From a virus: a stretch of 22,805 bases of DNA. The position numbers were made by a program, and so were the translations under genes. Shown in pieces: positions 55-22,249 of the stretch. The notes beneath the pieces are model-generated. The model did not search any database. It had not been told where the DNA came from and saw nothing but the letters and a program-made list of their open reading frames with translations. Where the stretch lies: IMG/VR virus record IMGVR_UViG_3300043448_000595, positions 1 through 22,805 of that record; one strand, written 5' to 3'. The first letter of the stretch is position 1; every line of letters starts with the position of its first letter.

Positions 55-243
55 CTAACTTTTGAAACTTGGAATTTTGTAATTACTTGCAGAATAAAAA
101 CGATTTGCGTCAAATCGTGGATTATCTTTTGCGAACATCTCCGCAAAATCTATAACCATTTTAGAAAAAACTGCTGGGTGAGTTTTATCTGATACATACC
201 GCAAAATTTCTGCGGTAGCAACATAATCTTTTCGGGTCATCAT
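55..243 (-). CDS. Small conserved phage protein (NPRFD motif)
   Basis: This 62-residue protein starts MMTRKDY and carries a central DNPRFDANRF motif. From memory, a widespread family of short phage proteins has the pattern (T/S)RKxY...NPRFDxxRF, often ending ACG; here the end is different (NYKIPSFKS). The function of that family is unknown to me. The start codon overlaps the stop of the upstream gene (TAATG), so the two are probably translationally coupled. The second codon is also ATG, so the true start could be three bases later. It is probably cytoplasmic, with no membrane segment or signal peptide. Confidence 0.75.
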   Translation of the reverse strand: MMTRKDYVATAEILRYVSDKTHPAVFSKMVIDFAEMFAKDNPRFDANRFYSASNYKIPSFKS

Positions 244-449
244 TATTTTTCTACGACCCTTCTGCCTTCACGATAAAATAATTTCGTGTAGCATTTTCCG
301 CTAGGTGTGTAAAGATTTACAGTTGAGTATTCGTCAGCAAATCCCCAATCTACATAACTAGCAAAACTCTTGTGAGCCTCTAGTTCATCAGCGAATTGTT
401 GTGTGTAATGAACAGGTTGTTCATCATAAGAAACAGTTATTTTATACAT
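243..449 (-). CDS. Small phage protein, unknown function
   Basis: This is a 68-residue protein beginning MYKITVSYDEQ. It has an acidic, aromatic-rich middle and a basic end (REGRRVVEK). I do not recognise a family. The start is set by a good ribosome binding site, AGAAAGGAAAACTAA, ending next to the ATG at 449. Its stop overlaps the start of the next gene (TAATG), indicating a two-gene coupled unit. A possible internal promoter of the repeated TGTCRGTGG type lies at 518-546, inside the upstream gene, and could drive this pair independently. Confidence 0.75.
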   Translation of the reverse strand: MYKITVSYDEQPVHYTQQFADELEAHKSFASYVDWGFADEYSTVNLYTPSGKCYTKLFYREGRRVVEK

Positions 450-462
450 TTAGTTTTCCTTT

Positions 463-582
463 CTATTCTGCTTCGGGTGTTGTAAATAAAGAAACGCATT
501 GGCATTTCTGAATTGTTATTGTATCGCCTACCACCGACAAAGTGGCAAGCGTGTCGCAATTATCGCAAAAAAAGATTTCCAT
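463..582 (-). CDS. 39-residue zinc-ribbon-like protein
   Basis: The protein begins MEIFFCDNCDTLATL and has a CDNC knuckle near its start and a CQC group near residue 28, so four cysteines could bind one zinc ion. This is the usual build of very small zinc-ribbon proteins in phages; a nucleic-acid or protein-contact role is only a guess. The start ATG lies one base after the stop of the upstream gene (TAAAATG), with GGAGGA from that gene's last codons as ribosome binding site. The gene contains a TGTCGGTGG box with a TACAAT -10 seven bases later, so it may carry a promoter for the genes downstream. Confidence 0.7.
   Translation of the reverse strand: MEIFFCDNCDTLATLSVVGDTITIQKCQCVSLFTTPEAE
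518..546 (-). promoter_or_regulatory. Internal promoter candidate, TGTCRGTGG type (copy P7)
   Basis: TGTCGGTGG at 539-531 is followed after exactly 7 bases by TACAAT (523-518). The -35 position reads GCCACT, not TTGAAA. It lies within the 463-582 gene and points at the genes at 449 and 243. The constant 7-base gap matches six other copies. Confidence 0.45.
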
Positions 583-583
583 T

Positions 584-730
584 TTAGAAATCCTCCTCAA
601 CGATTAGGTGCTCAGGATTACACTCGCACCACTCAAAATCATAATCTCCGTCTGGTGATACCCACCATGAAGAAATTCCTGCGCCCTCACAAATTTGGCA
701 GGTTAGAATTTTTTCTTTTGTTGTATTCAT
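584..730 (-). CDS. 48-residue CxxCxGxG zinc-finger-like protein
   Basis: The protein begins MNTTKEKILTCQICEGAG. CQICEGAG is a DnaJ-type CxxCxGxG half finger, and a second cysteine pair (CEC) follows about 20 residues later, so a zinc-binding hairpin is likely. It is clearly related to the 39-residue protein at 2407-2526 (CNECNGAG followed by CEC), so this small gene occurs twice in the region. The start has the ribosome binding site GAAAGGAAAA and a promoter (759-787) only about 30 bases upstream. The stop is one base before the next start, so it is the first gene of a short operon. Function unknown. Confidence 0.75.
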   Translation of the reverse strand: MNTTKEKILTCQICEGAGISSWWVSPDGDYDFEWCECNPEHLIVEEDF

Positions 731-758
731 TTAGTTTTCCTTTCGTTTAGTTAGTTGT

Positions 759-787
759 ATTATAGCGGAGGGGTCTGACATTTAGTC
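759..787 (-). promoter_or_regulatory. Promoter, TGTCRGTGG-related (copy P1)
   Basis: A perfect TATAAT -10 (764-759) is preceded after 7 bases by TGTCAGACC (780-772), a divergent form of the repeated box. The -35 position reads GACTAA and overlaps the stop codon of the gene at 782. It drives the operon starting at 730. Confidence 0.65.
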
Positions 788-994
788 AGAAACCCGAACC
801 GCAACAGTTGCCCATTTATCTTGAAGCGAACCCGTAGGGCGGAAGCGAATTGAATAGGCTTCGTAGCCCTCAGATAAATAAACATCATCTCGCTTTTCCG
901 CAAAGTTGATAATTCCGCCATTGAATCGGCGAGCCAATGAAGTTGGCGCATAGTATTGGTCAATTAGTAAATCGACAATTGAATAAGAACGCAT
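782..994 (-). CDS. 70-residue small phage protein, paralogue of the 2615-2812 gene
   Basis: The start is the ATG at 994 (MRSYSIVDLLID), chosen because CTAACGAAAGGAAAACTA just upstream is the regular ribosome binding site; a longer reading frame exists but would run through the promoter. The protein shares an SIVDLLI/NIESLLI start, an EAYxIRxR centre and a TVAVxV end with the 65-residue protein at 2615-2812, so the two are diverged copies. I do not know the family. The alternating hydrophobic pattern suggests a small beta-rich cytoplasmic fold. It stands alone between its own promoter (1020-1048) and the promoter of the next unit. Confidence 0.75.
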   Translation of the reverse strand: MRSYSIVDLLIDQYYAPTSLARRFNGGIINFAEKRDDVYLSEGYEAYSIRFRPTGSLQDKWATVAVRVSD

Positions 995-1019
995 TAGTTT
1001 TCCTTTCGTTAGGGTAGCA

Positions 1020-1048
1020 ATTTTACCAAAACCCACTGACATTTTCAA
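1020..1048 (-). promoter_or_regulatory. Promoter, TGTCRGTGG type (copy P2)
   Basis: -35 TTGAAA (1048-1043) and -10 TAAAAT (1025-1020) are separated by 17 bases, with TGTCAGTGG (1041-1033) placed 7 bases before the -10. It is the obvious promoter for the gene starting at 994. Confidence 0.75.
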
Positions 1049-1088
1049 ATCCAAATCGTAATTTCTCAAATAATGAGACGGCGTGTCG

Positions 1089-1104
1089 TGTGAGAAATCT
1101 CACA
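1089..1104. repeat. Palindrome upstream of promoter P2
   Basis: TGTGAGAAATCTCACA has two perfect 7-base arms around AA. It lies about 40 bases upstream of the P2 -35 and directly next to one half of the GGCGTGTCG inverted repeat. It could be a regulator site or the end of a terminator structure. Confidence 0.4.
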
Positions 1105-1142
1105 AAATTCGGGGGTTTTTAAAATTCGGACATAAAGGACAA

Positions 1143-1194
1143 AATGCCCCCATGCTTTTGCGGGCGGCAGCCAGCTTTGTCAAGCTGACACGCC
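1143..1194 (-). terminator. GC-rich hairpins after the 1200-1744 operon
   Basis: Just after the stop at 1200 the minus strand reads GGCGTGTCAGCTTGACA, with CAGCTT-gaca-AAGCTG forming a 6-base hairpin. A second imperfect GC stem (TGCCGCCC paired with GGGGGCA) follows before 1143. There is no clean U-tract, so termination is inferred from position and structure. Confidence 0.45.
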
Positions 1195-1199
1195 GATAT

Positions 1200-1322
1200 T
1201 TATTTTATTTTTTCAATATTTATAACTTCATATTCTTCATCAATAATTAGAGTATCGCCAAAATACCAATCGCTAGGATCAGTTTCGCTTTTTACTGATA
1301 AAGTTATTAGATACTTTTCCAT
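1200..1322 (-). CDS. 40-residue small phage protein
   Basis: The protein begins MEKYLITLSVKSETDPSDWY and is acidic with alternating hydrophobic residues, suggesting a small beta fold. It starts one base after the stop of the upstream gene (TAAAATG), with GGAAGG inside that gene as ribosome binding site. It is the last gene of a four-gene unit that begins at 1744. It has no recognisable domain, and its short length makes the coding call depend on the tight packing and regular junctions. Confidence 0.6.
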   Translation of the reverse strand: MEKYLITLSVKSETDPSDWYFGDTLIIDEEYEVINIEKIK

Positions 1323-1323
1323 T

Positions 1324-1446
1324 TTATAACGCACCTTCCTGAAATAATCCGATTTCTAAATCCAATAATTCTTGAGGAGTGGCTTCGGATAAATCTACCC
1401 AGCCCGCACCCTCATCATTTATTCTAAAAATTTCAATGTATCCCAT
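1324..1446 (-). CDS. 40-residue small phage protein
   Basis: The protein begins MGYIEIFRINDEGAGWVDL and is acidic. The start at 1446 overlaps the upstream stop (TAATG) and has AGAAAGGAAAATGAG as ribosome binding site. An ATG seven bases earlier is in another frame and stops after six codons, so it is not used. The product is soluble, of unknown function, and the third gene of the 1744-1200 operon. Confidence 0.6.
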   Translation of the reverse strand: MGYIEIFRINDEGAGWVDLSEATPQELLDLEIGLFQEGAL

Positions 1447-1550
1447 TACTCATTTTCCTTTCTAATAGTAGCGGATAAAATTTCAAGCGCTTCTTTTTTA
1501 GAAGCCTCTCGCTGAGCGAGAACATAATTTCTAAATTCATCTAAATTCAT
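1446..1550 (-). CDS. 34-residue helical phage peptide
   Basis: The protein begins MNLDEFRNYVLAQREASKK and is highly charged, probably one or two helices. Both its start and its stop overlap neighbouring genes as TAATG, which is the main support that this short frame is real. A ribosome binding site is not obvious, so it probably relies on coupling to the gene before it. Function unknown. Confidence 0.55.
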   Translation of the reverse strand: MNLDEFRNYVLAQREASKKEALEILSATIRKENE

Positions 1551-1744
1551 TATGCTAACCAACTTTCATTTGTATAGGACAACCACTCACCAAGAGTCAT
1601 AAGACCCTTGTATTCATTACACTTTCCGCAGAAAGTATCTGGAGCGTAATCATCGCAGAAAACGCAGACGATTTGATTTGCTTCCTCATCAGAAACATTT
1701 ATGAGAGTAATCTCTCGGATTTCGTATTTATTTAGTGTAGTCAT
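1550..1744 (-). CDS. 64-residue zinc-ribbon protein
   Basis: The protein begins MTTLNKYEIREITLI and contains CVFC near residue 30 and CGKC about ten residues later, a clear four-cysteine zinc ribbon, followed by an aromatic tail. The ATG at 1744 is chosen over an upstream in-frame GTG at 1753 because the GTG lies inside the ribosome binding site AAAGGTGG. It is the first gene of a four-gene operon under promoter 1777-1805. Zinc ribbons of this size often bind nucleic acids or RNA polymerase, but there is no direct evidence for that here. Confidence 0.75.
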   Translation of the reverse strand: MTTLNKYEIREITLINVSDEEANQIVCVFCDDYAPDTFCGKCNEYKGLMTLGEWLSYTNESWLA

Positions 1745-1776
1745 TTTGACCACCTTTCTTTATCTTGATACCTAGT

Positions 1777-1805
1777 ATCCTAACATAGACCACTGACATT
1801 TTGAC
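1777..1805 (-). promoter_or_regulatory. Promoter, TGTCRGTGG type (copy P3)
   Basis: GTCAAA at the -35 position (1805-1800), TGTCAGTGG (1798-1790), then after 7 bases TAGGAT as -10 (1782-1777). It drives the operon starting at 1744 and lies at the edge of the DnaA-box region. Confidence 0.7.
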
Positions 1806-1815
1806 CCGTTTTTCG

Positions 1816-1949
1816 GGCGTGTCGCAAAACTATTTTTGTGATTTAGGTCATGTGGATAACTTACGCTCAAAATTCCAGGGATTTCCACAGCTGTGCATAA
1901 AGCTGTGGATAACGCCCCCAAAAGCGGGGGCCTGTCAAGTCGACACGCC
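1816..1949. other. Putative replication origin: DnaA-box cluster bounded by an inverted repeat
   Basis: TGTGGATAA, the complement of the DnaA box TTATCCACA, occurs exactly at 1851-1859 and 1904-1912. TGTGCATAA (one mismatch) is at 1892-1900, and a weaker opposite-facing ATTTCCACA is at 1881-1889. CCACAGCT (1885-1892) and AGCTGTGG (1901-1908) also form an 8-base inverted repeat around the middle box. The segment is bounded by GGCGTGTCG (1816-1824) and its exact complement CGACACGCC (1941-1949). It lies between two operons and has no gene. An origin or a DnaA-responsive control region is inferred; no initiator gene is in the window. Confidence 0.55.
1914..1931 (-). terminator. GC hairpin after the 1951-2526 operon
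   Basis: GCCCCC and GGGGGC form a 6-base GC stem around a 6-base loop, just downstream of the stop at 1951 on the minus strand. There is no U-tract. It overlaps the edge of the DnaA-box region and could also be an origin structure. Confidence 0.45.
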
Positions 1950-1950
1950 G

Positions 1951-2076
1951 CTATTTTCTAAAATCTTTTATGGTTTCGATCACATCAGCTTTTAGGTCTG
2001 CCCACATTAGGCGGAAGCAATAGACAACGGAAGCCAAGAGAAATAATTGGACAATGCTGGTTAGTAATCTATTCAT
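1951..2076 (-). CDS. 41-residue single-pass membrane peptide
   Basis: The protein begins MNRLLTSIVQLFLLASVVYC. Its first half is one membrane segment (about residues 3-25), and the second half is a charged tail ending DFRK. It starts on the stop of the upstream gene (TAATG) with GGAGAGG as ribosome binding site, so translation is probably coupled. Small membrane peptides in phage early regions can alter host envelope functions, but no family is recognised. It is the last gene before the putative origin. Confidence 0.65.
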   Translation of the reverse strand: MNRLLTSIVQLFLLASVVYCFRLMWADLKADVIETIKDFRK

Positions 2077-2249
2077 TAGAACACCTCTCCAAAGATTTCC
2101 ATTTCCTCGATTTCCATTTCTTTTTCTAGTAATTCGTCAAGAGATAAATCTCTTTCCGTTTCGTATTCGTCAAACTCTACTGAGTAATTACTCTGTATTG
2201 TTTCGTATTTGTAATCGCTGGTATTTCTTTCCCATGACATCTGATACAT
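2076..2249 (-). CDS. 57-residue acidic phage protein
   Basis: The protein begins MYQMSWERNTSDYKYE and is very acidic. Its C-terminal part has two adjacent copies of an EMEI unit encoded by a short tandem repeat. Phage proteins of this charge can act as DNA mimics or inhibitors, but that is speculation here. The start has AAAGGAATAAATAA upstream and the stop overlaps the next start. A promoter-like element (2281-2309) lies about 30 bases upstream, inside the preceding gene. Confidence 0.65.
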   Translation of the reverse strand: MYQMSWERNTSDYKYETIQSNYSVEFDEYETERDLSLDELLEKEMEIEEMEIFGEVF

Positions 2250-2261
2250 TTATTTATTCCT

Positions 2262-2405
2262 TTACTTTCGGTTCTTGTAAATCTTATACGCTACCACTGA
2301 CACGATAGCAATTCCAATTCCTAGCCATGAAGCGTAGAAATCAAACTGAGCGGTTTCAAAGGCAATTCCGTCTGAGCCTAGTTCTATTAGTAAATATCTA
2401 TCCAT
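2262..2405 (-). CDS. 47-residue membrane peptide with C-terminal anchor
   Basis: The protein begins MDRYLLIELGSDGIAF. The first half is soluble; the second half has one membrane segment (about residues 27-42) followed by the basic tail KIYKNRK, so the C-terminus is probably cytoplasmic. It starts one base past the upstream stop (TAAAATG), with GGAAGGGAG as ribosome binding site. The coding sequence contains a TGTCAGTGG box with a correctly placed -10, so it may hold the promoter for the two genes downstream. Function unknown. Confidence 0.65.
   Translation of the reverse strand: MDRYLLIELGSDGIAFETAQFDFYASWLGIGIAIVSVVAYKIYKNRK
2281..2309 (-). promoter_or_regulatory. Internal promoter candidate, TGTCRGTGG type (copy P5)
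   Basis: TGTCAGTGG (2302-2294) is followed after exactly 7 bases by TAAGAT (2286-2281), inside the gene at 2262-2405. The -35 position reads GCTATC, not TTGAAA, so activity would rest on the conserved box. It would serve the genes at 2249 and 2076. Confidence 0.45.
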
Positions 2406-2406
2406 T

Positions 2407-2526
2407 TTAGTTATACTCCCTTCCACACTCGCACATCTCTACATCGTAGTTATCTTCATCTCCCCAGAAGATAAATCCTGCGCCATTACATTCATTACAT
2501 TCAATTTTAGTTATTGCGTTTAGCAT
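2407..2526 (-). CDS. 39-residue CxxCxGxG zinc-finger-like protein
   Basis: The protein begins MLNAITKIECNECNGAG. CNECNGAG followed about 20 residues later by CEC gives four cysteines that could hold one zinc ion. It is a paralogue of the 48-residue protein at 584-730. The start at 2526 has GAAAGGAAAACTAAAA upstream, and promoter P4 lies about 35 bases further. It is the first of four genes in the 2526-1951 operon. Related half-finger peptides are common in phage early regions; their function is not known to me. Confidence 0.7.
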   Translation of the reverse strand: MLNAITKIECNECNGAGFIFWGDEDNYDVEMCECGREYN

Positions 2527-2558
2527 TTTTAGTTTTCCTTTCATTTTGTTATGCCTTT

Positions 2559-2587
2559 AGGCTATCCTATGCCACCGACATTTTCAA
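2559..2587 (-). promoter_or_regulatory. Promoter, TGTCRGTGG type (copy P4)
   Basis: -35 TTGAAA (2587-2582), TGTCGGTGG (2580-2572), then after 7 bases TAGCCT as -10 (2564-2559). An alternative TAGGAT overlaps at a shorter distance. It drives the operon starting at 2526. Confidence 0.65.
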
Positions 2588-2605
2588 GCCTAGCGGTGGC
2601 GTGTT

Positions 2606-2627
2606 GAGTGTGATTTATGCCACACTC
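2606..2627 (-). terminator. Hairpin overlapping the stop of the 2615-2812 gene
   Basis: GAGTGTG and CACACTC form a perfect 7-base stem around an 8-base loop that includes the stop codon. There is no U-tract. It marks the boundary between two transcription units. Confidence 0.4.
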
Positions 2628-2812
2628 ACCGCAACTGTGCGGTAGGTATAACCTCCGCCATTCTTACGGATACGGACTAGATAAGCCTCAGCATCGGCAT
2701 ACCATACCGCTTTAGGATGCTTTTCAGCATCTACGATTTCACCCTCTACTGAGCGAGAGCGATAGTTTTTGCCTATTAGTAGGCTTTCGATATTATATAG
2801 ATTAGCACTCAT
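2615..2812 (-). CDS. 65-residue small phage protein, paralogue of the 782-994 gene
   Basis: The protein begins MSANLYNIESLLIGKNYRS, has EAYLVRIRKNGGG in the middle and ends RTVAVSVA. These landmarks match the 70-residue protein at 782-994, so the window holds two diverged copies, each in its own single-gene unit. It is probably a small soluble beta protein of unknown role. The start at 2812 has AAAGAAGGTAGC upstream and its own promoter (2845-2873). The unit is bounded by CGACACGCC (2876-2884) and the near-complement GGCGTGTTG (2598-2606). Confidence 0.75.
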   Translation of the reverse strand: MSANLYNIESLLIGKNYRSRSVEGEIVDAEKHPKAVWYADAEAYLVRIRKNGGGYTYRTVAVSVA

Positions 2813-2844
2813 TTTGCTACCTTCTTTCTTTTAGTTATATTGGT

Positions 2845-2873
2845 ATTATTTCAGATTTATTCAATTTTTTCAA
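2845..2873 (-). promoter_or_regulatory. Promoter for the 2615-2812 gene (P8)
   Basis: -35 TTGAAA (2873-2868) and -10 AATAAT (2850-2845) have a 17-base spacer. Unlike its neighbours this spacer lacks the TGTCRGTGG box, so it may be regulated differently. Confidence 0.6.
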
Positions 2874-2882
2874 GTCGACACG

Positions 2883-2911
2883 CCGCTTAGGCGGTGTGAG
2901 TTACCTCACAC
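2883..2911 (-). terminator. Double hairpin at the end of the 2901-3053 gene
   Basis: GTGTGAG/CTCACAC (2894-2911) forms a 7-base stem whose four-base loop holds the stop codon. CCGC/GCGG (2883-2894) follows directly. No U-tract is present. The next promoter begins at once. Confidence 0.45.
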
Positions 2912-3053
2912 AACAAGAGCAATAAGTCGGGAGGCTAAAGAGATACTTTAGCAGAGCCTTACGCTCATAAGTAGTTAGTTCAGGGTGATTACCTTGAACG
3001 CCCCCGTGTTGATATTCATACACGATTTTATCTAAAGTTTTTTGAGTGAGCAT
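2901..3053 (-). CDS. 50-residue small phage protein with C-terminal cysteines
   Basis: The protein begins MLTQKTLDKIVYEYQHGG and ends in a cysteine cluster (CSCCVR). The first part is probably helical. The start has CTAACGAAAGGAGCAAAA upstream, a strong site. It is the first minus-strand gene of the left-hand cluster, transcribed from promoter 3160-3188 with a leader of about 100 bases that holds two copies of a 16-base repeat. No family is recognised. Confidence 0.7.
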   Translation of the reverse strand: MLTQKTLDKIVYEYQHGGVQGNHPELTTYERKALLKYLFSLPTYCSCCVR

Positions 3054-3084
3054 TTTTGCTCCTTTCGTTAGTAGTTATCGGGTC

Positions 3085-3125
3085 TTATTTGCTAGGCTCA
3101 CCTTTCGGATTATTTGCTAGGCTCA
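3085..3125. repeat. 16-base direct repeat in the leader of the 2901-3053 gene
   Basis: TTATTTGCTAGGCTCA occurs exactly at 3085-3100 and 3110-3125 (25-base period), between promoter and ribosome binding site on the minus strand. It may bind a regulator or be an RNA element. Confidence 0.6.
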
Positions 3126-3159
3126 TACCCTTTTATTTAGTTTTTATCTTATGTCTATA

Positions 3160-3188
3160 ACAATACACGACCCCACTGACATTTTCAA
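3160..3188 (-). promoter_or_regulatory. Promoter, TGTCRGTGG type (copy P6)
   Basis: -35 TTGAAA (3188-3183), TGTCAGTGG (3181-3173), then after 7 bases TATTGT as -10 (3165-3160). It drives the gene starting at 3053. Confidence 0.7.
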
Positions 3189-5692: not shown

Positions 5693-6268
5693 CTACTTCT
5701 TCTCTGTAGGGAACTCTACCACTATTTCCCTAGCTTTGCTAATCGAGTTTGGCCATGAGGACCAATCGATTCCGCCTTTAGTCATATAATACGTTATCTC
5801 TGCGTTTATTACTGGATCAAATAATAGTACATTTGATCTCAGGTCGAATTTTTCTTTACGATCAATGCCGAGATTTCCCAACATGTTAATCTGAAAAATT
5901 CCGTAGGAACTGTCTCCAGTATTCCTGTTTCCGTTATAGGCCATAGGGCGTCCATTGGATTCCGCTTTGGCCATAGCCCAAGCCGTTTTAAGGGCTTTTC
6001 CTTCGAAACCTACAGCTGCAAGTAAATCTTTCAATTCATTGTCTGTAAGCATCTCTGAAGGCTTGTACACAGTGTTGCTGAATTTTTCCAGCGTTTCTTT
6101 CTTCAGTTGTGCTTTTGTTTTTGCATCCGCTTCAGTAATTACTTCAGCTTTTGCGGGTGTAAGTTGAACTACGGGGTTCCCTGAAAACAGATATAATGTT
6201 ATCATTATAACTGCTGTCCAAGAATGAGCCACGTCGCTCAACTTGTGTTTGATATTCTCCATAGGCAT
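5693..6268 (-). CDS. Membrane-anchored lysozyme-like lytic transglycosylase
   Basis: The start at 6268 (MPMENIKHK) is set by AAAGGAGAAA. Residues 18-40 form a membrane segment that could be an uncleaved signal-anchor or a signal peptide (ends TPAKAE). A charged linker follows, then a lysozyme-like fold: AMAKAESNGRP with the likely catalytic Glu103, SYGIFQIN at 121-128 and DPVINAEITYY near 151-161, with an aromatic WSSWP end. This matches the transglycosylase SLT/lysozyme superfamily, which cuts the glycan chains of peptidoglycan. Cell-wall breakdown at lysis or entry is likely. It leads a four-gene minus-strand operon opposite in direction to the fibre genes, which may allow separate timing. 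Confidence 0.85.
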   Translation of the reverse strand: MPMENIKHKLSDVAHSWTAVIMITLYLFSGNPVVQLTPAKAEVITEADAKTKAQLKKETLEKFSNTVYKPSEMLTDNELKDLLAAVGFEGKALKTAWAMAKAESNGRPMAYNGNRNTGDSSYGIFQINMLGNLGIDRKEKFDLRSNVLLFDPVINAEITYYMTKGGIDWSSWPNSISKAREIVVEFPTEKK

Positions 6269-6295
6269 TTTCTCCTTTAGAGATAACGGACTATA

Positions 6296-6325
6296 ATAGT
6301 AGCATTGCTTGATAATAACTGTCAA
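6296..6325 (-). promoter_or_regulatory. Promoter of the lysin operon
   Basis: TTGACA (6325-6320), 18-base spacer, TACTAT (6301-6296). The inverted repeat CTGGTTGACCAG (6327-6338) touches its upstream edge in the divergent region and may be an operator shared with the glycosyltransferase gene. Confidence 0.7.
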
Positions 6326-6346
6326 GCTGGTTGACCAGAAAAATAT

Positions 6347-7432
6347 ATGAAAATATCTGTATCTACACCTACAATGAATTTAAGAAATAATGCCCATGGG
6401 TACGGTCATGCGTGTCAGAAAATGATTCAATCTTTAAATAATTTAGGTCATGAGGTAAAAATTCAGGATTCTACTGCTAAATTTCAAATTAATTTTTCTC
6501 AGCCGCCGATGTGCAAATTCCATAAAGGACAATATCAAATTGTATATGTACCTTGGGAATCTACAGAAATTCCAAATGATTGGAAAAGAAACTTAGAATT
6601 AGCTGATGAGATATGGACTACATCAGATTGGTGTAAACAAGTATTTGAAGATGCTGGATATACAAATGTAAGTGTTTATGCACATGGAATAGATCCAATA
6701 TGGAAACCTAAACGTAGAAAGCGTTCTGATGTATTAAGATTTTTACATGTTGGAGAACCATCAATAAGAAAAGGCGGACAATTAGTTACGGATGCATTTG
6801 CTTCTTTGTTTGCAAATAATCCAAAGTATCAGTTAACCTTAAAAGCGGCAGGATCAACTAATACAAGAGTTTTTGGCGGAGTTATAGATCATCCTACATT
6901 AGAACCAGAAGATATGATTGCTACTGGATTTGGATGGAGCTTTGCTGCAAGTAGAGATCCTAAACACCATATAGACATGAATGCAAAAATCTTAGGTTCT
7001 CCAGATAAGATATATAATAATATTAAAGTAATAGGTGAAACTTTATCAGAAGAAGCATTAGTAAATTTGTACTATGAACATGATGTTTTAGTTTATCCTA
7101 CTTATGGAGAAGGTTTTGGGTTCATCCCGCTCCAAGCACTTGCAACAGGTATGCCAACAATTTCTACATTTGATTGGGCACATTACAAAGATTACCTAGG
7201 TCCATTAAAGTTAAAATCTCAAATAGTGGACTCTCAATGGGATTTAGTTCATCCAGGTAAAGTTTTTGAGCCAAACTATCAACATCTACTTGAACGTATG
7301 AAAGAAGCAGATGAAAACTTTCAGGCATATTCAGGTTATTATTATGCTCAGTCAACTAAAATTCATGAAGATTATAATTGGGATCAGTTGACCAATAATG
7401 CATTTAAAAAAGTTATAGAAAAATTTTCATAG
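6347..7432 (+). CDS. Glycosyltransferase, GT-B fold, family 4-like
   Basis: This 361-residue protein would transfer a sugar from a nucleotide-sugar donor to an unknown acceptor. The N-terminal half has the Rossmann-like acceptor domain with VYVPWEST (67-73) and IWTTSDWC. The C-terminal half has FLHVGEPSIRKGG (132-144), a donor-phosphate contact region, and YPTYGEGFGFIPLQALATG (250-268). In GT4 enzymes the last segment usually holds an EX7E pair; here it is E255 and Q263. No ribosome binding site is visible before the ATG, and the start has no good alternative. Phage glycosyltransferases modify DNA bases, host surface sugars or virion proteins; with fibre genes downstream, virion or receptor glycosylation are both possible. 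Confidence 0.85.
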   Translation: MKISVSTPTMNLRNNAHGYGHACQKMIQSLNNLGHEVKIQDSTAKFQINFSQPPMCKFHKGQYQIVYVPWESTEIPNDWKRNLELADEIWTTSDWCKQVFEDAGYTNVSVYAHGIDPIWKPKRRKRSDVLRFLHVGEPSIRKGGQLVTDAFASLFANNPKYQLTLKAAGSTNTRVFGGVIDHPTLEPEDMIATGFGWSFAASRDPKHHIDMNAKILGSPDKIYNNIKVIGETLSEEALVNLYYEHDVLVYPTYGEGFGFIPLQALATGMPTISTFDWAHYKDYLGPLKLKSQIVDSQWDLVHPGKVFEPNYQHLLERMKEADENFQAYSGYYYAQSTKIHEDYNWDQLTNNAFKKVIEKFS

Positions 7433-7435
7433 GTC

Positions 7436-7464
7436 TTCACACTTTAAATAAAGTTTGATAGAAT
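7436..7464 (+). promoter_or_regulatory. Promoter of the ribonucleotide reductase gene
   Basis: TTCACA (7436-7441), 17-base spacer, TAGAAT (7459-7464) with an upstream TG (extended -10). The leader of about 45 bases ends in GGCGGAGAAAGAG, the ribosome binding site of the gene at 7516. Confidence 0.65.
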
Positions 7465-7515
7465 TAGAGTCTCACAAATTTTAAATTAACCGTTTAAGGC
7501 GGAGAAAGAGTTGTT

Positions 7516-9450
7516 ATGTTAAAAGTTATTGAAAACCCCTACGAAAATTTTATTGCCCTGTCCCGATATGCAAGATGGATTCCAGAAGAGAATCGTCGAG
7601 AGACTTGGGGTGAAACAGTAGATCGTTATTTCAATTTCATGCTTAATCATTTGGCAAAGAACTACAACTATACTCCAGATCCTAAGTTTGTAGAAGAACT
7701 TAAGAACGCTGTCTATGATAGAAACGTTATGCCATCTATGCGGTCTGTAATGACTGCAGGTGCTGCATTAGATAGAGACCATGTTGCAGGATATAACTGT
7801 TCATTTGTTCCAGTAGACAATCCACGATCATTTGATGAGACAATGTATATCTTGATGTGTGGAACTGGTGTTGGATTCTCTGTTGAGTATAAGTACGTTA
7901 ATAAACTTCCTGCCGTCCCAGAATCATTTGAGAAGTCTACAACGGTTATTGTAGTTGAAGATTCAAAGACTGGATGGGCTAAGGCTTATCGTGAACTTCT
8001 TGCAATGCTTTGGGCAGGACAAATTCCTTCTATTGATGTATCAAAGCTTCGTCCAGCAGGTGCACGTCTTAAGACAATGGGAGGCCGCTCTTCAGGACCA
8101 CAACCATTGATTAATCTTTTTGATTTTACTATTGCTAAGTTTAAAGCAGCAGCAGGTCGTCAATTGAAACCTATTGAAGCTCACGATATAATGTGTAAGA
8201 TTGGTGAAATCGTTGTTGTTGGCGGAGTTCGTCGTTCTGCTATGATTTCTTTGTCTAATATTAATGACATTGAGATGGCTGCAGCAAAATCAGGTAACTG
8301 GTGGGAAAATAATTCACAACGTGCCCTTTCAAATAATTCAGTTGCGTATTCTCGTAAACCAGAAATGGAACAGTTTATTGCAGAATGGAAAAACCTATAT
8401 GATTCTAAATCGGGAGAACGAGGCATATACAATGTGGCTGCTGCTCAAAAGCAGGCAGCAAGATGGGGACGTAGAGACCCTGAAATCCATTACGGAACCA
8501 ACCCTTGCTCAGAGATTATCCTCAGACCTTACCAATTTTGCAACCTTTCTGAAGTTGTAATTCGTGAAAAGGACACAAAGAAAGATATTGAAAGAAAAGT
8601 AGCCTTTGCTACTATTCTTGGTACTTGGCAATCAACACTAACAGACTTTAAGTATCTTCGTAAGGTATGGAAAGATAATACAGAAGAAGAGCGTTTGCTT
8701 GGTGTGTCCATCACAGGACAGTTTGGACATAAGTTTATGTCTGGACAAGAAAATATAAATGACCTTGGTAAATTCTTGAATAACCTTAGAGATATAGCTA
8801 GAGCATGGAATAAGGAAGAAGCAGAAACTCTTGGAATCAACCCTTCTGCAGCAATTACCTGCGTTAAGCCATCAGGAACTGTTTCACAGTTAACTGGCGT
8901 ATCTTCAGGAATGCATGCATGGCATTCACCATACTATATTCGCACAGTTCGTGGAGACAAGAAAGATCCTCTATCTACATTTTTAAAGGAAGTCGGAATT
9001 CCAGTAGAAGATGATTTCATGAAGCCAAACGATACCTACGTATTTTCATTCCCAGTAAAAGCACCAGAGGGTGCAATTGTTCGTGATGATCTTACGGCTA
9101 TTGATCATTTGAATACATGGCTTGTTTATCAGCGTGAATGGTGTGAGCATAAGCCATCTATTACTGTGTCTGTTAAAGAAGATGAGTGGATGGAAGTTGG
9201 TGCTTGGGTATATAAGCACTTTGATGAAGTATCAGGTATTTCATTCCTGCCCCATTCAGATCACTCATACAAGCAGGCTCCATATCAGGAAGTTACGGAA
9301 ACAGAATACCTAGAACTTCTTGCTAAGATGCCGTCTTCAATTCGCTGGGAAGATTTATCTTTCTATGAGACAGAAGATGGAACAAGCGGAACTCAAACTC
9401 TTGCCTGTACTTCAGATGGCAATTGTGAGATTGTAGACATTTCCGCATAA
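7516..9450 (+). CDS. nrdJ: Adenosylcobalamin-dependent ribonucleotide reductase (class II)
   Basis: This 644-residue enzyme reduces ribonucleotides to deoxyribonucleotides for phage DNA synthesis. C95 (GYNCSF) and C342 (QFCNLSE) correspond to the disulfide-forming pair. NPCSEI puts the radical-carrying C331 and E333 in the active site, and KPSGTVSQLTG (451-461) lies in the barrel. The tail ends in a C-x5-C pair (C631, C637) for re-reduction. The order matches the monomeric Lactobacillus-type enzyme, which as I recall has about 740 residues, so this is a compact form. No activase or radical-SAM partner is present, as expected for a B12 enzyme. The host must supply cobalamin. It has its own promoter and ribosome binding site. 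Confidence 0.95.
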   Translation: MLKVIENPYENFIALSRYARWIPEENRRETWGETVDRYFNFMLNHLAKNYNYTPDPKFVEELKNAVYDRNVMPSMRSVMTAGAALDRDHVAGYNCSFVPVDNPRSFDETMYILMCGTGVGFSVEYKYVNKLPAVPESFEKSTTVIVVEDSKTGWAKAYRELLAMLWAGQIPSIDVSKLRPAGARLKTMGGRSSGPQPLINLFDFTIAKFKAAAGRQLKPIEAHDIMCKIGEIVVVGGVRRSAMISLSNINDIEMAAAKSGNWWENNSQRALSNNSVAYSRKPEMEQFIAEWKNLYDSKSGERGIYNVAAAQKQAARWGRRDPEIHYGTNPCSEIILRPYQFCNLSEVVIREKDTKKDIERKVAFATILGTWQSTLTDFKYLRKVWKDNTEEERLLGVSITGQFGHKFMSGQENINDLGKFLNNLRDIARAWNKEEAETLGINPSAAITCVKPSGTVSQLTGVSSGMHAWHSPYYIRTVRGDKKDPLSTFLKEVGIPVEDDFMKPNDTYVFSFPVKAPEGAIVRDDLTAIDHLNTWLVYQREWCEHKPSITVSVKEDEWMEVGAWVYKHFDEVSGISFLPHSDHSYKQAPYQEVTETEYLELLAKMPSSIRWEDLSFYETEDGTSGTQTLACTSDGNCEIVDISA

Positions 9451-20063: not shown

Positions 20064-20657
20064 ATGGTTATGAATAATTTAAAAGAAGGAAAATATGTAG
20101 CGCCTGGCATATGTGTCTACGAAAATGTATTAGAAAATCCTCAAAAATACATAGACCTAGCTTTAAAAAATTGTGAATGGCGAGATGCAAAAGTACACGA
20201 TTCTGGAAATCCAGAAGACGTTAAATTAAAGTCTGATGTAAGAAATAATCGTGTTGCACAACTAAATGTAGGTTTCGAACATCCTTTAGAATGGTTTGAA
20301 ATTGGTTCTTTAATATTTAAATATATGAATCAATATGCAAAAGAAAACGAATTTGCATTCGGCGGCCTAGAACCTATTGGAATGCTTCATTATAAAGCGG
20401 GAGAAGGATTTTATATTCCACATGTAGATCATAACGATCTTTCTCCAAGAGTTGCTGCAGCCCTACTTTATCTTAATGATGTAGAAGAAGGCGGAGAAAC
20501 TCATTTTGTAAATTTTGATATTTCAGTAAAACCAAAAGCTGGCACACTAGTTTTATTTCCAGGAAATTATCCATACTTACACGGAGCAAAAACTCCAGTT
20601 AGTAATGATAAATTTGTAATTGTTACATGGTTCCCACCCTCTCAGATAGGTAGATAA
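20064..20657 (+). CDS. 2-oxoglutarate/Fe(II)-dependent oxygenase
   Basis: This 197-residue enzyme couples 2-oxoglutarate decarboxylation to hydroxylation of an unknown substrate. The iron site is HVD (H120, D122) and H173 (YLHGAKTP); the basic residue that holds 2-oxoglutarate is probably K183 (NDKFVIVTWF). GGETHF (143-148) and the double-stranded beta-helix strands match the prolyl-4-hydroxylase-like family common in phages. There is no clear ribosome binding site. A second ATG two codons on could be used. Its stop overlaps the halogenase start (TAATG), so the pair is coupled and likely acts in one pathway. Confidence 0.9.
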   Translation: MVMNNLKEGKYVAPGICVYENVLENPQKYIDLALKNCEWRDAKVHDSGNPEDVKLKSDVRNNRVAQLNVGFEHPLEWFEIGSLIFKYMNQYAKENEFAFGGLEPIGMLHYKAGEGFYIPHVDHNDLSPRVAAALLYLNDVEEGGETHFVNFDISVKPKAGTLVLFPGNYPYLHGAKTPVSNDKFVIVTWFPPSQIGR

Positions 20658-22249
20658 TGATTAATTTAAATAAGATAGTCATCGTTGGCGGAGGCTCCGC
20701 TGGATGGATGTCAGCAGCATCTATGATTAGAGCATTTCCAGATAAGGAAATTGTGGTTATTGAATCCCCCGATTATCCGATCATTGGCGTTGGAGAATCA
20801 ACGCTTGGAGGAATTACGGGATGGGCAAACTGGATTGGCATTGACGAAAAAGATTTTATGCCAGCAACAGATGCCGTATATAAAATGTCTATTAAGTTTA
20901 CAGATTTTTATAAAAAGGATGCAGGCGGATTCCATTATCCATTTGGCAAAGTATTTTTAGACGGAACAGTTAATGGTCTTAATGATTGGTATGTAAAGAA
21001 AGCTAAATTCCCAGAATTAGATGTAGCAGATTATGCTCGTACATTTTTCCCCGCTCTTACATTAGCGGAACAGAATAAGCTATCTTGGAATGAATCAGGT
21101 AAACTAGGTAACTTTAACTTCAAGCAAGATGTTGCTTATCACTTTGATGCTACTAAGTTTGGTCAATGGCTAAAGAATAACTATTGCATTCCTCGTGGAG
21201 TTACAGTAATTCCTTCAACCGTAACAGATGTTACTACAAATGAGGCGGGAATTGAAAGCGTAACAATATCTGACGGCACTAAGATTACAGCAGATCTATT
21301 TATTGATTGTACAGGATTTAAATCAATGCTCCTTGAAGGCGCTCTAGGAGAGCAATGGGATGATTTCTCTCATATGCTTCCAAATAATAGCGCATGGGCT
21401 ACACGTATCCCGTATACAGATATTGAGAAAGAAATGGAGCCATACACCAATTGCACCGCTATCGGTCATGGTTGGGTATGGAATATTCCTTCATGGGAAC
21501 GTATTGGAACAGGGTATGTATTTAGCGACAAGTATATAACACCAGAAGAAGCCTTGCAGGAATTTAAAGATCACCTGCGCTCAGATAAAATGACTGTTCA
21601 TGATCCAAATCGTGATGTTGATTCTTATGAGTATAAGCATATTAAATTCCGTGTCGGAATTCATAAGCGCACATTTGTTAAGAATGTTGTTGCTATTGGA
21701 TTTGCTGCTGGATTCATCGAACCTTTAGAATCTAATGGGCTATTCACAGTTCATGAGTTCTTGGATAAGCTTGTAAAGACATTAAGCCGTGGAACGGTAA
21801 CACAAACAGACCGTGATGTTTATAATATGACTACACGTCGTCAATATCTAGGATTTAAAGAATTTGTTGCCCAACACTATGCTCTTTCAAATAGAACAGA
21901 CACGAAGTATTGGCAAGATATTACAGACAAGGTATTCCAGCCAGATCTTCCAGATCTAAATCCATCTATGGTTGTTGGCTTTAATGATATGGCAGATATT
22001 CATATTAATCGTCAAAGATATGATGGGGTTGGCGGAATCCACTGTATTGCAACAGGACTTAATTATTTCCCAGTAACAGCAGAAACTGTAGATAGATGGA
22101 AGCATTATGATAGAGTGGATTATTACGATTATTGCAAGAATACTTGGTCAACATGGGAGATATTCCGTAAACTTTGGCAGGAAGAAGCAGATGCTTCACC
22201 TACAATGTATCAATGGCTAAAAGAAAATATCCATAATGATAAAGCCTAA
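20657..22249 (+). CDS. Flavin-dependent tryptophan-type halogenase
   Basis: This 530-residue enzyme would use reduced FAD, oxygen and halide to halogenate an aromatic substrate. GGGSAGW (11-17) binds FAD. GVGEST (44-49) and VYKMSIKF (74-81) match the region with the catalytic lysine (K76, equal to K79 of PrnA/RebH). WVWNIP (273-278) is the family's WxWxIP signature, and PLESNG (356-361) matches the segment with the active-site glutamate (E358). Length is typical. Such enzymes need a flavin reductase, not seen here, so the host must supply it. Relatives occur in cyanophages, one of which was shown to act as a halogenase. The substrate is unknown. Confidence 0.92.
   Translation: MINLNKIVIVGGGSAGWMSAASMIRAFPDKEIVVIESPDYPIIGVGESTLGGITGWANWIGIDEKDFMPATDAVYKMSIKFTDFYKKDAGGFHYPFGKVFLDGTVNGLNDWYVKKAKFPELDVADYARTFFPALTLAEQNKLSWNESGKLGNFNFKQDVAYHFDATKFGQWLKNNYCIPRGVTVIPSTVTDVTTNEAGIESVTISDGTKITADLFIDCTGFKSMLLEGALGEQWDDFSHMLPNNSAWATRIPYTDIEKEMEPYTNCTAIGHGWVWNIPSWERIGTGYVFSDKYITPEEALQEFKDHLRSDKMTVHDPNRDVDSYEYKHIKFRVGIHKRTFVKNVVAIGFAAGFIEPLESNGLFTVHEFLDKLVKTLSRGTVTQTDRDVYNMTTRRQYLGFKEFVAQHYALSNRTDTKYWQDITDKVFQPDLPDLNPSMVVGFNDMADIHINRQRYDGVGGIHCIATGLNYFPVTAETVDRWKHYDRVDYYDYCKNTWSTWEIFRKLWQEEADASPTMYQWLKENIHNDKA

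Follow-up and report, generated by a model that had tools for sequence, protein, structure and literature searches.

The window analysed here is the whole of IMG/VR virus record IMGVR_UViG_3300043448_000595, 22,805 bases with 38% G+C, and is probably a partial virus genome; a comparison with INPHARED gave no near match to it. Its left end is occupied by an arm of small leftward genes of unknown function (55-3053, minus strand), which extends to the left end of the contig and appears to be read from promoters that share the box TGTCRGTGG. An original prediction for this arm held that seven sites carry the box or a close form of it, each followed exactly 7 bases later by a TAnnnT -10 element. 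Here we examine these sites and the factor most likely to read them.

The exact box TGTCRGTGG occurs six times in the window, always on the minus strand, and TAnnnT lies exactly 7 bases past it in all six cases (0 for the reversed-pattern control). The shorter pattern TGTC[AG]G-N10-TAnnnT gives exactly seven matches, all on the minus strand and all at the predicted -10 positions, such that every site has the TGTCRG element and a gap of 10 nt to the -10, and six of the seven the full box; the seventh, at 759, has the core only, with the spacing intact. All seven share the strand of their downstream genes. From right to left, the first promoter (3160-3188) consists of TTGAAA (3183-3188), the box TGTCAGTGG (3173-3181) and the -10 TATTGT (3160-3165), and points toward the open reading frame (ORF) at 2901-3053. 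The second (2559-2587), also with a TTGAAA -35, has the box TGTCGGTGG (2572-2580) and the -10 TAGCCT, and points toward ORF 2407-2544. The third (2281-2302; box TGTCAGTGG at 2294-2302, -10 TAAGAT) lies within ORF 2262-2408 and points toward ORF 2076-2249. The fourth (1777-1805) combines GTCAAA (1800-1805), the box TGTCAGTGG (1790-1798) and TAGGAT ahead of ORF 1550-1744, and the fifth (1020-1048) combines TTGAAA (1043-1048), the box TGTCAGTGG (1033-1041) and TAAAAT ahead of ORF 782-994. The sixth (759-780) has the core TGTCAG (775-780) and the -10 TATAAT (759-764). The seventh (518-539; box TGTCGGTGG at 531-539, -10 TACAAT) lies within ORF 463-582 and points toward ORF 243-449.

As had been claimed, a -35-like hexamer is found at four sites, 17 bases ahead of the -10 (TTGAAA at 3160, 2559 and 1020; GTCAAA at 1777), and the two sites within genes, 518 and 2281, have none; both lie near the 3' ends of their small ORFs, aimed at the next gene. 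The predicted contrast at 2845 was likewise borne out: the candidate sigma-A promoter at 2845-2873 (minus strand), before ORF 2615-2812, reads TTGAAA-17-AATAAT, and neither the box search nor the core search gave a PafBC-type core there.

Chance and base composition can be ruled out as the source of the boxes by shuffles, reversed controls and core permutations. In 300 dinucleotide-preserving shuffles TGTCRGTGG occurred 0.15 times on average (maximum 2) and the box with TAnnnT 7 bases on in none, the chance of TAnnnT per position on the minus strand of the window being 0.020. When the core was permuted at random 500 times, two permutations gave seven matches; by our estimate, roughly this many draws should recreate the original word. 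A -10 control written T...AT was discarded, as it overlaps the real -10s (120 matches).

The prediction had proposed a motif search over the genome and its relatives, and this showed the box to be present in related genomes. With the 65-amino-acid arm protein encoded at 2615-2812 we found 52 viral loci (443 kb), of which 42 have at least one full site. They contain 148 copies of TGTCRGTGG, 144 with TAnnnT at +7, and none of the reversed box; TAnnnT stands at +10 for 392 of 581 TGTCRG words, versus 1 of 183 reversed words. Many of these loci are close copies, and the distinct sites number 109 for the full box (window included) and 249 for the core. A search of whole records found the full pattern in 30 of 33 and the reversed pattern in 0 of 33. 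The loose core, counted in 13 viral records (three of them mutual near copies), gave 196 sites against 10 reversed. Sites number up to 20 per record and are mostly confined to one arm, as in record G001, where they lie mostly within 65.7-75.0 kb of 119.8 kb. Small operons follow the sites, their start codons lying for the most part some 45-60 bases past the first base of the box; in 87 of the 109 distinct sites, both a ribosome-binding-like motif and a start codon stand no more than 38 nt from the -10. A match of at least 4/6 to TTGACA at 17-base spacing was found in 14 of 64 clustered sites of the relatives and was missing from the other 50; a count of 36/64 at one offset arises from the first bases of the box itself and was discarded. 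A 35-base consensus probe gave only weak matches in INPHARED and PLSDB. The -35 together with the box matched cellular genomes three times, outside Actinobacteria and at an estimated frequency close to chance, and is uninformative on hosts.

The core is most often continued by TGG (98 of the 249 distinct sites), followed by ACC (43), TCC (29) and TGC (26). Since ACC follows the core in 43 of these sites, site 759, which reads TGTCAGACC and has core and spacing in place of a full box, belongs to a recurring second form and is not simply a decayed box. In several relatives TGTCGGTGG stands ahead of a near-identical CTTCCGCTATAAT stretch, comparable to that of site 759. The second form TGTCAGACC coexists with TGTCRGTGG in related loci (L081-L132), which offers a natural test of how far the activator tolerates changes beyond TGTCRG.

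The sites within genes bear on the claim that the box itself is under selection. ORF 2262-2408 carries its box in frame, where it encodes Val-Ser-Val-Val. From 47 homologous loci we compared 32 distinct full-length sequences, window included. Ser-Val-Val is found at the place of the box in 22 of them, and none of the 22 has lost the box, the spacing or the -10. In these sequences the serine codon is TCA or TCG, the two valine codons are invariant and the preceding codon is GTG or TTG, both of which end in TG. Codons in the same sequences vary at the four-fold residues Gly14, Ala16, Ala20, Gly30 and Gly32, although that of Ser27, unlike these, is nearly constant (TCA in 21 of 22). The remaining 10 homologues have another peptide at this place and no box. 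Such constancy is expected of a DNA site that lies within genes, and we accept the claim. The box is found in this frame in other small genes too, where it encodes LSVVGDT and LSVASAT, and different small genes (L190, L191 and L192) share [V/L]-S-V-[V/A], apparently derived from an in-frame embedded promoter box.

The element corresponds to a known promoter class. The consensus of RecA-independent mycobacterial damage promoters is given as tTGTCRgtg-8 nt-TAnnnT (PMC5656591), and the PafBC motif of Mycobacterium tuberculosis as TGTCGG-10N-TA-3N-T, with TGTCAG allowed and directionality essential (PMC8151990); a review states that this RecA-NDp class reaches other Actinobacteria (PMC8223512). 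The sites of the window have the sequence, spacing and direction of the PafBC motif and, like it, do not depend on a -35. A structural study (PMC11804915) describes how the helix-turn-helix of PafB reads the -26 element and that of PafC binds domain 4 of sigma-A, how single-stranded DNA (ssDNA) activates PafBC through its WYL domains, and how, by this sigma adaptation, mycobacterial RNA polymerase (RNAP) with sigma-A starts at promoters that are otherwise unrecognised. We found a WYL-domain protein in none of 20 viral records, the same search being positive in 7 of 14 control genomes, including Corynebacterium glutamicum, and a host activator is therefore the simplest reader. Judged from these sequence features, we think it likely that the sites are PafBC-type (RecA-NDp) promoters and that the actinobacterial host's own ssDNA-activated PafBC, a heterodimeric WYL-domain activator, drives the arm by sigma adaptation.

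The host is very probably an actinobacterium, because WhiB, treated as an actinophage mark (PMC10202952), is encoded in 17 of the 29 viral records that are related or carry the box (among the 14 control genomes only in C. glutamicum) and because genes of the flank and arm are akin to those of Streptomyces phages. The flank (5693-9450) contains a lysozyme-like gene (minus strand), a glycosyltransferase gene (plus) and a class II ribonucleotide reductase (RNR) gene (plus). The RNR shares 66% identity with its counterparts in Streptomyces phages, Yaboi and LilMartin among them, and the order of leftward small genes, lysozyme-like gene, glycosyltransferase and RNR matches that of Yaboi (Stanwilliamsviridae). 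Identity is about 50% between a 336-amino-acid DUF932 arm gene in a related record and an arm gene found in Streptomyces phages; the recognisable arm genes of the relatives encode DUF932, GP88 and an Api92-like protein.

The original prediction had favoured a phage-specific activator or an altered RNA polymerase controlling the whole early region. Its view of these as activator-type promoters is supported; the phage-specific reader is not, given that motif and spacing are those of PafBC and that neither a WYL protein (20 viral records) nor an above-cut-off sigma region 4 (29 records) was found. PafBC indeed retunes host RNAP, through sigma adaptation, yet as a protein of the host and not of the phage. 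A phage-encoded activator or RNAP-modifying protein, either converged on the PafBC sequence or a diverged copy of PafBC, could be hidden among the arm proteins of unknown function or beyond the ends of what is probably a fragment, and eight of the 29 records do have weak, sub-cut-off Sigma70_r4-like hits. However, no record of the 29 reaches the Pfam cut-off for Sigma70_r4, WYL was absent from the 20 records searched, and the motif is identical to that of the host activator; we regard such a protein as unlikely. A search for a T7-type RNAP gave no match, its control being equally silent.

Two further explanations fare worse. The box might serve as an operator, overlapping the promoter spacer, to which a phage or host repressor binds. 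Cluster A mycobacteriophages have asymmetric 'stoperators', and an asymmetric repeated site within the spacer, together with a fair -35 in 14 of the 64 clustered sites that could fire without an activator, would suit this idea. An operator would, however, be tolerated at other places, whereas the -10 spacing is identical in 144 of 148 boxes, the boxes are oriented with the genes and a -35 is missing from most sites, all of which makes an operator very improbable. We give equally little credence to another host regulator of the P1/RecA-NDp motif, be it ClgR or a different WYL protein: WYL regulators are many, and ClgR acting on the P1 motif is discussed in PMC5656591, but the same text has P1 induction blocked without pafBC, and in the structure (PMC11804915) it is the helix-turn-helix of PafB that engages the -26 element. 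Control by LexA was rejected, the SOS palindrome CGAAC-N4-GTTCG occurring 0 times in the window and in 2 of the 52 relatives.

Host PafBC as the reader has to be set against the cultured phages, most of which lack the box. Among 17 cultured actinophages (Yaboi and 16 picked through the DUF932 gene), the strict pattern was found in three (4 sites; reversed control 1), and the loose core was at chance (11 sites versus 10 reversed). The nearest named relatives, the Streptomyces phages Yaboi, MindFlayer and Belfort, have no strict site. Of seven phages picked through an exonuclease gene only Marvin has the strict pattern, and no box was seen ahead of the exonuclease homologue in six other phages. 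Nor are there recognisable DNA-repair genes among the arm genes. In Streptomyces venezuelae the PafBC motif seems not to be conserved despite PafBC homologues, as reported in PMC9380542; this agrees with the box-less Streptomyces relatives and proves nothing. Among individual sites, ClearAsMud 32853 was not relied on, there being a better -10 nearer the gene, and Nicole72 27489, within a minor tail protein gene, is probably due to chance; the other site of Nicole72, 42179, precedes its DUF932 gene.

The strongest example among cultured phages, in favour of this reader, is a single site of this kind in the Mycobacterium smegmatis phages Clarkson and Marvin. There, TGTCAGTGGAGGTCGATACAAT stands directly ahead of the exonuclease gene, which is followed by an ssDNA-binding/annealing gene. 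The promoter (Clarkson, L209:856-886; Marvin counterpart, L218) reads TGTCAGTGG-7-TACAAT, with the GTG start of the exonuclease 7 bases on. Because the start codon lies so close to the -10, the exonuclease mRNA may be leaderless, and the recombination genes of these M. smegmatis phages are a candidate for a leaderless operon driven by damage. Copies of the 151-base stretch that are at least 97% identical occur in 19 records of Mycobacterium phages (some phages counted twice; the box was read in two).

If host PafBC is the reader, ssDNA arising during infection, from entering or replicating phage DNA or from damaged host DNA, would activate it, and active PafBC would in turn enable RNAP-sigma-A to start at the arm promoters that lack a -35. 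Expression of the arm should then rise in proportion to ssDNA, while the minority of promoters with a -35 (TTGAAA) may fire at a basal level without PafBC. An arm that tracks ssDNA could be a clock that times phage replication or the breakdown of host DNA, or else an alarm raised on attack by the cell against phage DNA. We therefore put forward, as a tentative proposal held with distinctly less confidence than the identity of the reader, that a lineage of large actinophages may have placed an entire arm, with its 10-20 promoters, under the host damage activator that senses ssDNA, using arm expression as such a clock or alarm with no activator of its own. Concerning the prediction of whole-arm control, boxes do occur throughout the small-gene arm of the relatives; the term early rests on gene layout and on the arm's resemblance to Yaboi's left arm, by which the arm would be an early region.

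The promoter class is already known; neither its arm-wide use by phages nor phage promoters read by PafBC were found in a literature survey judged mostly by titles and the openings of abstracts and covering few subscription papers, and the literal box string appeared only in unrelated contexts among the matches listed. In mycobacteria, PafBC is the principal regulator that turns on the damage response. Should the proposal be true, this response joins the actinophage infection programme, and PafBC mutants should alter phage growth. The natural setting is M. smegmatis with Marvin-type phages, and it is the first place to take the idea since PafBC was studied in M. smegmatis. Viral genomes would also supply the -26 element in hundreds of naturally varied copies, from which the tolerance of PafBC could be defined, and the box would provide a first regulatory handle on the unknown small genes of the arm and a marker for phages of PafBC-using hosts.

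Three other features of the window deserve mention. Three DnaA-type boxes (TTATCCACA twice, TTATGCACA once) lie within 62 bases (1851-1912, minus strand), with promoter 1777 just downstream of the cluster; TTATCCACA occurs 121 times in 47 of the 52 related loci, versus a naive expectation of about 5. The cluster may be an origin of replication served by host DnaA and lying within the putatively box-controlled arm. A repeat, GGCGTGTC[AG][AG]CTTGA, is found at 1180-1194, 1935-1949 and 2870-2884 (minus strand), at gene ends near terminator-like stems, and in 25 copies in 18 of the 52 related loci. Finally, two genes adjoin at 20064-22249 (plus strand), after the tail genes, one for a 2OG-Fe(II) oxygenase and the other for a member of the tryptophan halogenase family (Pfam E 1e-102); the pair is unusual phage cargo.

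Among known systems, the proposed arrangement resembles LexA/SOS control of phages and prophages in tying phage genes to host DNA damage, but would act by activation, not repression, and the window has no SOS-box-like palindrome. The left arm of Yaboi is alike in its leftward small genes, a promoter-like gap before most of them, a DUF932-type gene and the order of the flank, but its promoter-like sites look to be of the -35/-10 type, without the box. The Marvinvirus exonuclease promoter has the full box, the exact spacing and the -10 TACAAT, and differs from the window in being a single site before recombination genes, with GTG 7 bases past the -10. Closest are the mycobacterial PafBC-dependent promoters (RecA-NDp, recA P1), which have the same TGTCRG(TG), the same 10-nt gap to TAnnnT, the same asymmetry and the same lack of need for a -35. 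Unlike these, the sites described here are phage-borne, come in up to 20 copies per record, mostly in one arm and before small unknown genes, continue the core mostly with TGG or ACC, and in some cases add a TTGAAA -35.

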